In this document: positions 37,229-42,726 of the stretch, one piece after another
Numbering within the stretch: position 1 is the first letter of the stretch
Layout: every line of letters begins with the position of its first letter
Origin: Caldisericales bacterium
Lineage (GTDB): Bacteria; Caldisericota; Caldisericia; Caldisericales; Caldisericaceae
Reading direction: 5' to 3'
Assembly (NCBI GenBank): GCA_015489815.1
Contig: WFZA01000019.1
Coordinates: 1 to 64,000 of the forward strand
Length of the DNA: 64,000 nucleotides
Notes under the pieces: generated by a model
What the model saw: only the letters and a program-made list of their open reading frames with translations
What the model was told of the DNA's origin: nothing
Databases searched by the model: none
Made by a program: the position numbers and the translations under genes

Positions 37229-38341
37229 TTGTTTAGAGAAGAGTACGAAAAATTAGAAAAAAGTTTGCTCTCCCCTCGTGCGACTTTAAGCTCTCGTTCA
37301 AAGGGGAGAGCTTATCCAGAAAGTAAGGATCCTTATAGAACGCCTTTTCAAAGGGATGTAGACAGGGTTCTTTACTCTAAATCTTTTAGAAGATTACAGT
37401 ATAAAACTCAGGTATTTATTGCACCTCTCGGTGACCACTATAGAAATAGGCTTACGCACACACTTGAAGTGATGACTATTAGCAGAGCAATTGCTCGTGC
37501 ACTTAGGTTAAATCCCGACCTTACGGAAGCAATTGCATTAGGCCACGACCTGGGTCATTCCCCATTTGGGCATGCAGGCGAAGCTGTTCTAAACGCAAAG
37601 TGCAAAGAATACAATCCTTCACTACACTTTTTTCATCCAGAGCAAAGCCTAAGAGTGGTTGATGTGTTGGAACGCAGGATTCGTTCAAACGGTGAAGTCG
37701 TTTTTGGTCTAAATCTAACATTTGAAGTTCGGGACGGAATACTGCACCATAGTAAGGGACTTGCTGATCTTTCTTCTTTAAGGAAAGCAATTCTCCCTGA
37801 AACACTTGAAGGAGAGGTTGTAAGAATTTCAGATAGAATTGCATATTTGCATCACGATACTGACGATGCAATACGCGCTGGTTTAATAAAAGAAACAGAT
37901 ATTCCTGAGCAGGTGATGAAAGTACTTGGAAAGTCGAATTCTAAGAGATTGTCGACACTTATTTTGAGTGTTATTGATTACAGTAAGGACGAAGAACACA
38001 TCGGAATGTCCGATCCCGTTATTTCTTCCATGGATTTGTGGAAAAATTTTTTAAAAGAGCGTGTTTATATAGGTTCTAAGCCAAAAGAGGAGGAGAAAAA
38101 GGTCAGAGAACTGCTCTCTTTTTTGTTTGACTACTTCTACGATAAGCCAGAAAAAATGGAGAAGTTTTTACAAAATCATCCAATATCGCTTAAGACTGAT
38201 AGTCCCGTGAAATATTTGAGAGAGAACAAAAAGGAGAGGCTTATCGTGATTTGTGATTACCTCTCCTCAATGACAGACCGCTTTGCTGTAGAAATTGCTA
38301 AATCTATTTTATTTCCAAATCCATTACCACTAAATTACTAA
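37229..38341 (+). CDS. dgt: dGTP triphosphohydrolase-like HD protein
   Basis: This HD-domain protein (370 residues) matches deoxyguanosinetriphosphate triphosphohydrolase-like family members that cut dNTPs to nucleoside and triphosphate. Metal ligands are in RLTHTLEV and LGHDLGHSPFGH, with RISDRIAYLHHDTDD later. The frame is open back to an ATG at 37172, but those residues overlap ppdK and are not family-like. I take TTG 37229, which starts FREEYEKLE one base after the ppdK stop and implies coupling. It ends four bases into the convergent SIMPL gene. Confidence 0.83.
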   Translation: MFREEYEKLEKSLLSPRATLSSRSKGRAYPESKDPYRTPFQRDVDRVLYSKSFRRLQYKTQVFIAPLGDHYRNRLTHTLEVMTISRAIARALRLNPDLTEAIALGHDLGHSPFGHAGEAVLNAKCKEYNPSLHFFHPEQSLRVVDVLERRIRSNGEVVFGLNLTFEVRDGILHHSKGLADLSSLRKAILPETLEGEVVRISDRIAYLHHDTDDAIRAGLIKETDIPEQVMKVLGKSNSKRLSTLILSVIDYSKDEEHIGMSDPVISSMDLWKNFLKERVYIGSKPKEEEKKVRELLSFLFDYFYDKPEKMEKFLQNHPISLKTDSPVKYLRENKKERLIVICDYLSSMTDRFAVEIAKSILFPNPLPLNY

Positions 38342-39078: not shown

Positions 39079-39135
39079 TTTATCACCTCCATTAATTAGA
39101 CGCTCAATCTTAAAAAAGTTCCATTGCAATTAATA

Positions 39136-39141
39136 ATTATA
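39136..39141 (-). promoter_or_regulatory. Possible -10 of the SIMPL gene
   Basis: TATAAT occurs on the minus strand, 58 bases before the ATG, with only a weak -35 region. It would leave a leader with GGAGGTG. A TTGACA on this strand at 39197-39202 is too far away to pair with it. Confidence 0.35.
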
Positions 39142-39210
39142 AGATTAAAGTTTTAAAACGCATACTTTATTTAAAAAATACATTCTACATACATGTCAAG
39201 TATTTATTGT

Positions 39211-39238
39211 TTGCAAAATTTATTTTTTTTCTTACAAT
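39211..39238 (+). promoter_or_regulatory. Promoter of the rimP-nusA-infB operon
   Basis: TTGCAA at 39211-39216, 16 bases, TACAAT at 39233-39238. Transcription would begin near 39245 and give a leader of about 90 bases holding a hairpin. Confidence 0.7.
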
Positions 39239-39284
39239 ATGATTATAAAAAGTTATTTAATTAATTTGTTATTATTTTGTTTAC

Positions 39285-39320
39285 AAGTGGGATATGTATC
39301 TGTGCCCACTTTTTGTTTTG
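39285..39320 (+). terminator. Terminator-like hairpin in the rimP leader (attenuator candidate)
   Basis: AAGTGGG at 39285-39291 pairs with CCCACTT at 39305-39311 around 13 bases; TTTG and TTTTG follow. The promoter at 39211-39238 is upstream, no plus-strand gene lies before it for more than 900 bases, and the rimP ribosome site (GGGAG) is directly after. It therefore lies inside the operon leader. NusA controls its own operon through a weak leader terminator in Bacillus, so the same scheme is plausible here. Confidence 0.6.
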
Positions 39321-39336
39321 ATGGGAGATGATTTTT

Positions 39337-39783
39337 ATGGACCGAGTGGAAGAAATTGTAGCTCGAAGTGCAAAGAAATTGGGGCTCATTCTGGTGGAGT
39401 TTGAGATTAAAAATGGTAATATCGAAGCAGTAGTGTATAGCACAGAACATAATGTTACGATTGACGAACTTGAACTACTTACCGAGGAGATTCAACATGA
39501 ATTGGCAGAAGTAGGATTGGACACTGTTTACGGAGTTAATCTTTCTTCTCCTGGTTTGGACAGGATTCTGAAGACTGATAAAGAATTGGACATTTTTCAA
39601 GGGAGGCTTGTAAAGGTTTCGTATTTTGACGAAGATAAAATTGTAGTAAGAAAAGGCATTTTAGAAGGAAAGAGCGGAAGTGATATTTTATTGAATTGTG
39701 AAGAAGGTAAGCAAAGCATCCCTTTTAATAAAGTTACTTCTGTTCAATTGTGGGATAAAATATTTGAGAAGAGGAGGCGGTAA
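39337..39783 (+). CDS. rimP: Ribosome maturation factor RimP
   Basis: RimP helps mature the 30S subunit. The 148-residue protein has the alpha-beta N-terminal domain and the SSPGLDRILKTDKEL block linking to an Sm-like C-terminal domain. An ATG at 39328 is also in frame but abuts GGGAG; ATG 39337 is nine bases from it. It is followed by nusA two bases after its stop, the usual bacterial order. Confidence 0.93.
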   Translation: MDRVEEIVARSAKKLGLILVEFEIKNGNIEAVVYSTEHNVTIDELELLTEEIQHELAEVGLDTVYGVNLSSPGLDRILKTDKELDIFQGRLVKVSYFDEDKIVVRKGILEGKSGSDILLNCEEGKQSIPFNKVTSVQLWDKIFEKRRR

Positions 39784-39785
39784 TA

Positions 39786-40835
39786 GTGCTTGATATAGAT
39801 GTTTTAAGGAATATGGAAAAAGAAGAGCACATTTCTAAAGAGTACATTATAGATGTAATTAAGACTACTTTGATTGCTGCATATAAGAAAACCTTTGGGG
39901 AGTCGAATGCTGTTGTAAAGATTAATATGGCTAAGGGTCTGGTGAAGTTGTATGCAGAGAAATTGGTAGTTGAGAAGGTGAAGAATAATGTCCTCGAGAT
40001 CGGCCTGGAAGAAGCAAAAAAGTTTTCTGAAGATGCTAAAGTTGGCGACAAGGTGCTTATTGAAATTCCGGTTAGTTCACTTTCTTCTTCTGCAATAAGG
40101 CTAGCCAAGCAGGTGTTTAAACAACGAATAACTGAGAAAAAAAGAGAAATTGCTTTTCAAGAATTTTCCGGCAAAGTTGGCGACATTATAAGTGGTAAGG
40201 TTACGCGAAGAAAATCTCACGGAGAGATAGGTGTAAACATCGAGCCTTACGACATAGAAGGAATAATCCCTCCAGAAGAAGCCATACCTAACGAACCTAT
40301 GAGGCGTGGTAAATTGGTAAAAGCCTACATTAAAGAGGCTAAAAAGACTGATAGAGGACCTCTGGTTATTCTTTCAAGGGCCTGTCCTGAATTTATGATA
40401 AAGTTAATGCGCCTTGAAATTCCTGAAATTGAGCAAGGAATCGTGGAGATTAAAGGTGCTGTTAGAGAGCCTGGCGTTAGAGCAAAGGTCGCCGTTGCAA
40501 CTAAAGATTTACGCGTGGATCCGGTGGGTGCGTGTATAGGTGCAAAAGGTGTTAGAATTAATTCTGTTTCTAAAGAAATCAATCGTGAGAGGATAGATGT
40601 TATTCGCTACAGTTCAGATCCAGAACTATACATTGAAAATGCTTTAAGTCCTGCCAGGGTTGATCGAGTAGAAATTATTGAAGGGGCACGCGAAGCAAAT
40701 GTTTATGTGAATAGTAAAAATTATCCGACTGCTCTTGGTAGTAACGGTATAAATGTAATGCTTGCATCAAAGCTTACCGGATATAAAATTCACCTAATTG
40801 AAACATCAGAGGAAGGTGATGTAAATGAGTCATAA
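39786..40835 (+). CDS. nusA: Transcription factor NusA
   Basis: NusA binds RNA polymerase and modulates pausing, termination and antitermination. The 349 residues contain the N-terminal polymerase-binding domain, an S1 domain from about 130, and two KH domains with the DPVGACIGAKGVRI loop near 245. There are no C-terminal acidic repeats, as in most non-proteobacteria. Start is GTG 39786, with GAGGAGGCGG upstream inside rimP. It overlaps infB by 11 bases. The small YlxR and L7Ae-like genes often found between nusA and infB are absent. Confidence 0.96.
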   Translation: MLDIDVLRNMEKEEHISKEYIIDVIKTTLIAAYKKTFGESNAVVKINMAKGLVKLYAEKLVVEKVKNNVLEIGLEEAKKFSEDAKVGDKVLIEIPVSSLSSSAIRLAKQVFKQRITEKKREIAFQEFSGKVGDIISGKVTRRKSHGEIGVNIEPYDIEGIIPPEEAIPNEPMRRGKLVKAYIKEAKKTDRGPLVILSRACPEFMIKLMRLEIPEIEQGIVEIKGAVREPGVRAKVAVATKDLRVDPVGACIGAKGVRINSVSKEINRERIDVIRYSSDPELYIENALSPARVDRVEIIEGAREANVYVNSKNYPTALGSNGINVMLASKLTGYKIHLIETSEEGDVNES

Positions 40836-42726
40836 AATAAGAGTTTACCAGCTTGCAAAGAAGTTGGGTATAAAGTCTACTAAACTCGTTTCTATCCTTG
40901 AAGAATTGGGGATTAAAAACAAGGGAAATTTATCAATGATCGACGAGGAGACATCCACGCTCGTAGAAGAATACATAAGTGAGATGCAAAAGGAGCGCGT
41001 AAAGGAAGAAGAGAAAAATCAGAGAATTCAGGGTGACATCACGCTTGAAGAATTTGCAAAAAGATTTAACATTCCAGAAAAGACGGTTCGTGAAAGAATA
41101 ATGAAGTTAGGATTACCATATAAGCCTGGCAGAAAGTATTCAAAAGACGAGATCCATTATCTTGCATACGAAATGGACCTGGATGTCCCAGAGTTTACGA
41201 ACTCAGAATTTTTAAGTAGATTTGAAAGTAGAGCACCGGTAGTTACCGTTATGGGGCATGTAGATCACGGTAAAACTACTTTGCTTGATTACATTAGAAG
41301 AACATCTGTTGCAGAACGAGAAAAAGGTAGAATTACGCAAGCAATTGGTGCATCGGTCGTTGAAGTTGACGGGAAAAAGATAATATTTATAGACACTCCA
41401 GGGCACGAAGCGTTTACCGAGATGAGACTTCGTGGTTCTATCGTTACTGACATCGTAATTCTCGTAGTTGCTGCAGACGAGGGGATAAAGGAACAGACTA
41501 TCGAATCAATCGACCATGCTCGTGCTGCAAATGTTCCCATTATTGTGGCTATCAACAAAATAGATCGTCCCAATGCAGACCCGGAGAGAGTTAAACAGCA
41601 ACTTGCCGATAGAGGTCTGCTTCCAGAAGAATGGGGAGGTTCTACTATTTATGTACTCGTTTCTGCAAAAACAGGAGAAGGAGTAAAGGAACTGCTGGAA
41701 ATGATCAACCTACAGGCGGAATTATTGGAGTTAAGGACAGATCCAAATACACTTTGTTCTGGCACTGTTATTGAATCTAAGATGGATAAGAATAAAGGCC
41801 CTTTGGCTACTGTAATTGTTCAAACCGGGACACTGAAAGTAGGAAACTTTATAAGAGCAGGTGATGTGGTAGGTAAAATTAGATTTCTAACTGACACCAA
41901 CGGGCAGCGCGTAAAAGAGTCGAAAGCCGTTTCCGCAGTAGAAGTTGCAGGCCTTCCAGATGTACCCAAGGCAGGTGAAATTTTCTATGTAATTGAAAGT
42001 AGCAGCGAAGCGAAAGAAATTATCAAACAAATCGAAGAAGAGAAGCGGTTGCAGAAAATGAAAGCACAGTCAGGACCTAAGACTATAGAGGATCTTTTCA
42101 GAGAAATGCATGAAAAAGAAATTAAAAAATTGTTTGTTATATTAAAGGCTGGTACTCAAGGTGCACTGGAGGCAGTAAAGCATGCAATAAGTGAAATTAA
42201 ATCTCCTGTACCTATTGAAATAATTCACGAAGGTATTGGAGGTATCGTAAAAAGCGATGTACTCCTTGCAGATGCAGCAAATGCATTAATTATAGGCTTT
42301 AATGTAAGGCCTACTACTGAAGCAAAGAAAGAATCCAAAGCCCGTGGAGTAACCATAAAAACTTACGACATTATATTTGAACTTACTGATGCACTTGAAG
42401 CAATATTAAAAGGTATGGTTAAAGTTGAAAAGCAAGAAGTAGTTATAGGTAGAGCACTGGTAAAGAAGACTTTTAAGGTGTCTGGTGTGGGCACGATTGC
42501 AGGTTGTCTGGTCACCGAGGGTAAAGTAGTAAGAGGTTATAAAGCAAATGTATTGAGAAATAATGTCGTCGTATATTCCACAGAAATATCGTCTTTGAAG
42601 AGATTTAAGCAGGATGTTAAAGAGGTATTAAAAGGCTACGAGTGCGGCATAGGGCTAAAAAACTTTAACGACATTAAAGTAGGTGACGAAATTGAGGTTG
42701 TAAGTACAGAAGTTAAAAAGGAATGA
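40825..42726 (+). CDS. infB: Translation initiation factor IF-2
   Basis: IF-2 is a GTPase that places initiator tRNA on the ribosome. The short N-terminal part (1-130) has two IF2_N-like helical units. The G domain follows, with GHVDHGKTT at 144-152, DTPGHEAF and NKIDRP, then domains II-IV. At 633 residues it is a short form lacking the long charged linker of proteobacterial IF-2. GGAAGG precedes the ATG within nusA. The rsmI start follows one base after the stop; rbfA and truB, common downstream, are not here. Confidence 0.96.

Follow-up and report, generated by a model that had tools for sequence, protein, structure and literature searches.

The locus and its leader

The window, a 64,000-nt stretch of contig WFZA01000019.1 from a Caldisericales bacterium (GCA_015489815.1), carries on its plus strand rimP (39337–39783, 148 aa; RimP_N above cut-off, the C-terminal domain match below it), nusA (39786–40835, 349 aa with a GTG start; the NusA_N and KH_5 matches pass their cut-offs, that to KH_NusA_C falls short) and infB (40825–42726, 633 aa). 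The upstream neighbor of rimP is a divergent SIMPL-domain gene on the minus strand (39078–38338), and the nearest plus-strand gene upstream, an HD-domain phosphohydrolase, ends at 38341; thus the original prediction was right that a hairpin ahead of rimP ends no other plus-strand unit.

The 5′ leader at the head of this operon begins with a promoter at 39210–39238 (+), found by promoter scan and readable as TTTGCA-17-TACAAT or, one base on, as TTGCAA-16-TACAAT. The leader RNA is predicted to begin some 7 nt beyond the −10 box, near 39245, so that its A/T-rich first segment, from predicted start site to stem, would span 39245–39284 (+). The hairpin follows at 39285–39311 (+), with AAGTGGG at 39285–39291, a 13-nt loop and CCCACTT at 39305–39311; its seven pairs are all Watson–Crick, and folded alone it has a computed energy of −9.4 kcal/mol. 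Direct reading places an interrupted T tract, TTTTTGTTTT, at 39310–39319 (+), the predicted 3′ end of an attenuated RNA of some 70–75 nt if the predicted start site is right, and then GGGAG, the probable rimP ribosome site, at 39323–39327 (+). The end of the stem lies 25 nt from the rimP ATG at 39337. Promoter, seven-pair hairpin with T runs and ribosome site are all present as originally described.

The segment ahead of the stem (39245–39284) contains a single C, and so can hold no antiterminator pairing with GUGGG. An antiterminator, a riboswitch and a leader peptide were each considered for the window and dropped, there being no C-rich partner before the stem and no conservation of the spacer. 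Compared with most relatives, the leader has about 25 nt of additional A/T-rich sequence here, between −10 box and stem, an extension that the window's genome shares with its congener and with no other.

Energy and consensus scans

Judged by energy and consensus scans alone, the leader is not above chance; it is conservation, as read from sequence comparison, that lifts it above chance. The whole leader folded no better than its dinucleotide shuffles (z = 0.22), which we counted against an attenuator, and the promoter alone is not above chance either (4 promoter-like sites in the scan vs. 3.2 expected). The terminator scan of the leader found none, because the 13-nt loop exceeds its loop limit of 8. 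Six candidate gene-end terminators in the window fell into three at −12.6 to −17.3 kcal/mol and three at −3.8 to −4.8 kcal/mol, with the leader hairpin between them; its stem is thus not clearly weaker than those of nearby gene ends, as the original prediction's weak stem would have it, and this too we counted against the proposed attenuator. At gathering scores, Rfam release 15 matched only a tRNA elsewhere in the whole window, and no leader; at E values up to 10 there were five matches in 39100–39450, all far below gathering score (L20_leader among them, at 13 bits vs. 58.7). The genome from which the window comes (77.9% complete) contains the pattern GTGGG..CCCACTTTT a single time, at the rimP leader.

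Conservation within the family

A NusA search of the window's genome and 60 others matched 52 of the 61. The family set comprised 18 genomes, of which 16 were testable; in the other two (G003 and G009) neither a NusA match nor a rimP-associated hairpin was found, and they stand outside the counts that follow. Absence of the stem from near relatives, named beforehand as one outcome that would speak against the prediction, was not seen: the stem precedes rimP in 16 of the 16 testable genomes. We scored conservation with a strict motif, requiring both G[TC]GGG..CCC[AG]C and five T within eight bases, controlled by 20 shuffles per locus, which gave means of 0.00–0.10 loci per group. By this measure all 15 family loci scored have the motif ahead of rimP (shuffle mean 0.00); the sixteenth genome (G005) has the hairpin before a rimP within which its contig ends.

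Fifteen family sequences (the window, L003–L015 and L321, with L054 left out) were aligned with MAFFT, which placed the L013 stem one base out of register, so that some columns called nearly invariant reflect alignment slip. Invariant columns comprise the −10 box, GG, CCCAC and TTTTT; the T tract contributes its five leading T and three more further on, and the promoter blocks TTTG.AAA and TTTACAATAT-like are invariant or nearly so. The loop, the spacer and the ribosome-site region vary. Hairpin energies across the family run from −8.2 to −11.8 kcal/mol. The predicted leader attenuator before rimP-nusA-infB draws support from the fact that promoter, stem and T tract are kept together. The same columns bear on a different role for the hairpin, stabilizing the 5′ end of the mRNA or controlling rimP translation, for which the stem is suitably placed near the predicted 5′ end and a short distance before the start codon; since a T tract is needed for neither, and it is the T run and not the ribosome site that the family keeps invariant, we regard this reading as very improbable.

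Matches to GTGGG..CCCACTTTT in the family genomes numbered 23, 16 at rimP and 7 elsewhere. The latter had no adjacent RimP match at E values up to 1, except for a 13-residue stretch (E = 0.38) at L327, and neither of the two matches in G009 had a RimP match beside it. At least three of the seven (L320, L324 and L327) follow the end of a same-strand open frame at a distance of about 30 nt, like ordinary gene-end terminators. Such use away from rimP is what one might expect of an unregulated terminator that merely trims operon output or shields the operon from stray transcription, and a terminator requires no regulator. Against this, the operon has a conserved promoter of its own that precedes the hairpin, with 22–24 nt between −10 box and GTGGG in 11 of 15 family leaders, and the rimP leader has no plus-strand gene immediately before it; a terminator without regulation consequently appears improbable to us, if somewhat less so than a stability or translation hairpin. 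The same spacing is 48 nt in the window and its congener and 14 nt in L014 and L015.

Other families of the phylum

Elsewhere in the phylum the hairpin is kept unevenly. One family of another class (f7) has the strict motif at rimP in 5 of 5 loci, and three sister families of the same class lack it altogether (f3 0/4, f4 0/4, f5 0/5; 0/13 together), with a looser scan over the whole f3, f4 and f5 loci finding no GTGGG stem either. In f4 locus L018, rimP is the first gene of its unit, next to a divergently oriented frame, and the hairpin is absent. These absences, together with a near absence in Spirochaetota (1/30, below), indicate that the hairpin is dispensable in some lineages, and were counted against the attenuator. 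As to gene order, the gene preceding nusA in f3 locus L042 is not rimP and no hairpin is present, and L039 looks alike; f3 nusA seems to begin its own unit without rimP in front. In f5 locus L045 a RimP-like frame follows a thioredoxin-like frame, both named by eye.

Family f2 carries a variant stem in every one of its 11 loci, with 5′ arm AAAAGTGGGCGCG and a 3′ arm that is mostly CCACTTTTT; under the strict motif these loci score 0/11. The 5′ arm is invariant though its fifth G has no standard partner in 10 of the 11 loci (ungapped register). An arm held constant beyond the needs of pairing would suit the same attenuator under another controller, with RimP, NusG or some other protein binding the GUGGG hairpin and altering termination, a reading that we consider unlikely overall; with a mean column identity of 83% the f2 sequences are close relatives of one another, which makes their invariance weak evidence for it. 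The f2 leaders (L023:860-1050 and ten other loci) also carry a second strong hairpin, ACGTCCG..CGGACGT, some 20–25 nt upstream of the GTGGG hairpin, and the 11-locus alignment has a conserved ATGTCATGAACGTGACA..GCGACATGACGTC segment besides. This second hairpin and segment might, from their sequence, form a tandem leader like the gammaproteobacterial one.

Other phyla

For Bacillota and four more phyla or classes we took as loci the 30 best NusA matches, not a random draw, from 58–61 genomes each, with four further loci added for Bacillota, every set bearing the phylum label of the named locus used as its center; loci with enough upstream sequence came to 27–34 per group. The strict motif was found in 26 of 34 loci in Bacillota, 22 of 30 in Alphaproteobacteria, 20 of 29 in Desulfobacterota and 15 of 27 in Nitrospirota, and in a single one of 30 in Spirochaetota. 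Among named species outside Caldiserica the count was 34 of 72, after six of the 78 loci had been dropped as too short upstream; six named loci (L062, L079, L092, L094, L098 and L110) belong to genomes from which the phylum sets also draw, giving some overlap. The motif never occurred inside nusA in any group with long enough loci (f5 not among them). On the reverse strand there were matches too, at most 10 of 34 (in Bacillota), which is what a nearly palindromic motif preceded by A should produce. Scoring stems by similarity gave higher counts (Bacillota 31/34) and passed two f5 loci that fail the strict motif; that scoring leaned on the consensus and had no shuffle control, and the strict counts are preferred.

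Stems chosen by consensus likeness changed in ways that keep pairs: the U-A pair becomes C-G in 9 of 24 Desulfobacterota and U-G in 8 of 25 Alphaproteobacteria; at the foot of the stem, A-U is replaced by G-C in 5 of 5 f7 and 23 of 31 Bacillota stems. Such substitutions across lineages support a paired stem, as far as sequence comparison goes. We also weighed whether the kept 5′ arm GUGGG, set against a drifting 3′ arm (the U-G fourth pair in those 8 of 25 alphaproteobacterial stems), could be evidence of single-strand recognition, and rejected it: changes of C and A to U and G still pair with G and U, and the 5′ letters cannot change alone, so pairing alone would give this asymmetry of the arms.

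Two further sorts of leader were seen. Those of Spirochaetota (L262–L291) often have a T tract and a related stem before rimP, but the stem is spelled differently, AGAGTC(G)/(C)GACTCT in place of GAGTGGG. Loci L091, L117 and L125, of Ignavibacteria and Fibrobacteres, have terminator-like stems of inverse polarity, 5′ CCCC with 3′ GGGG or GGG, at about the rimP-leader position.

Comparison with described leaders

The rimP-leader was described by Naville and Gautheret (2010; PMC2965389), who place it first among their listed attenuated genes, as a GGGc..gCCC hairpin with a T stretch and no antiterminator, very widespread, with a range of 4–130 nt from stem to start codon; the authors report that they could find the motif in no other terminator. 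In the terms of that account the window's element is much alike: it precedes rimP-nusA-infB, has a short stem with GGG 5′ and CCC 3′ and a T stretch, shows no visible antiterminator or larger conserved element, and its distance to the ATG falls inside the published range. It differs in having GGGa..gCCC, so that the published motif is half matched, which we counted against the attenuator, and in its 13-nt loop; the Caldisericota lineage is not named in the paper's account of the element. The c after GGG is also absent in Bacillota leaders (e.g. Brevibacillus, GGGGAAACCC), so we do not treat it as defining. Taken with its conservation, this likeness makes the window's element very probably a rimP-leader attenuator, whatever its control. 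The original prediction had set its hairpin in a distant lineage, which is no surprise, as occurrence there is to be expected of a described and very widespread element. A literature search naming Caldisericum returned no paper containing the word among the matches listed, which does not show absence in print.

Probable control by NusA

As to what would control the attenuator, NusA is given as the best candidate regulator of the rimP-leader (PMC2965389), and NusA feedback on the Escherichia coli operon is cited in two papers (PMC2965389, PMC4448216). In Bacillus subtilis, according to a review citing Mondal et al. 2016 (PMC12288461), NusA controls its own synthesis by stimulating termination in the leader of its operon, which makes the predicted parallel with the Bacillus nusA operon an apt one: both have a 5′ leader terminator in NusA's own operon, a likeness of description and not letter by letter, with the NusA effect reported for B. 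subtilis and inferred for the window. The leader of the same operon in Streptococcus agalactiae (gbs0413–gbs0418) likewise has an intrinsic terminator, and NusA feedback has been proposed there; RNA-seq places its termination 31 nt after the start, whereas the longer RNA predicted for the window comes from sequence alone (PMC4448216). The window's stem and tract also resemble NusA/NusG-dependent terminators of B. subtilis, among whose features are weak stems, bottom A-U pairs and interrupted U tracts (PMC8060035), the latter two being present here. The B. subtilis and E. coli reports both weigh against a controller other than NusA. What counts in favor of such a controller, besides the f2 arm, is that several phyla keep the stem as sequence; a terminator merely assisted by NusA would have no need of this.

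In the NusA model, RNA polymerase would start about 40 nt before the stem, and the GUGGG/CCCAC hairpin would form as the stem is transcribed. At the interrupted U tract the polymerase would either release the short RNA or read through into rimP-nusA-infB. NusA, the product of the second gene, would aid hairpin formation and lengthen the pause, so that high NusA would bring more termination and low NusA would let the operon be read through, a negative feedback working without an antiterminator. The anatomy, the conservation of promoter, stem and T tract, the lack of a competing partner in the leader and the position at the operon head are directly established; termination at the leader T tract, and NusA rather than NusG, RimP or another factor setting its efficiency, are inferred. 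The statement as a whole, a Caldisericota rimP-leader attenuator with NusA negative feedback, we hold to be probably correct.

A broader proposal can be made only tentatively, namely that the GAGUGGG stem heading rimP-nusA-infB is no generic terminator and may be an ancient, vertically kept recognition site, read by one protein, most likely NusA, across Caldisericota, Bacillota, Nitrospirota, Desulfobacterota and Alphaproteobacteria; Spirochaetota would then have rewritten the stem (GAGUC) in their own lineage.

The element is of an already described attenuator type and ordinary in kind; its occurrence in Caldisericota is what is new. The present analysis extends this attenuator to that phylum, with conservation in close relatives and multi-phylum counts under shuffle controls, and sharpens the question of why a terminator stem stays conserved as sequence across bacteria.
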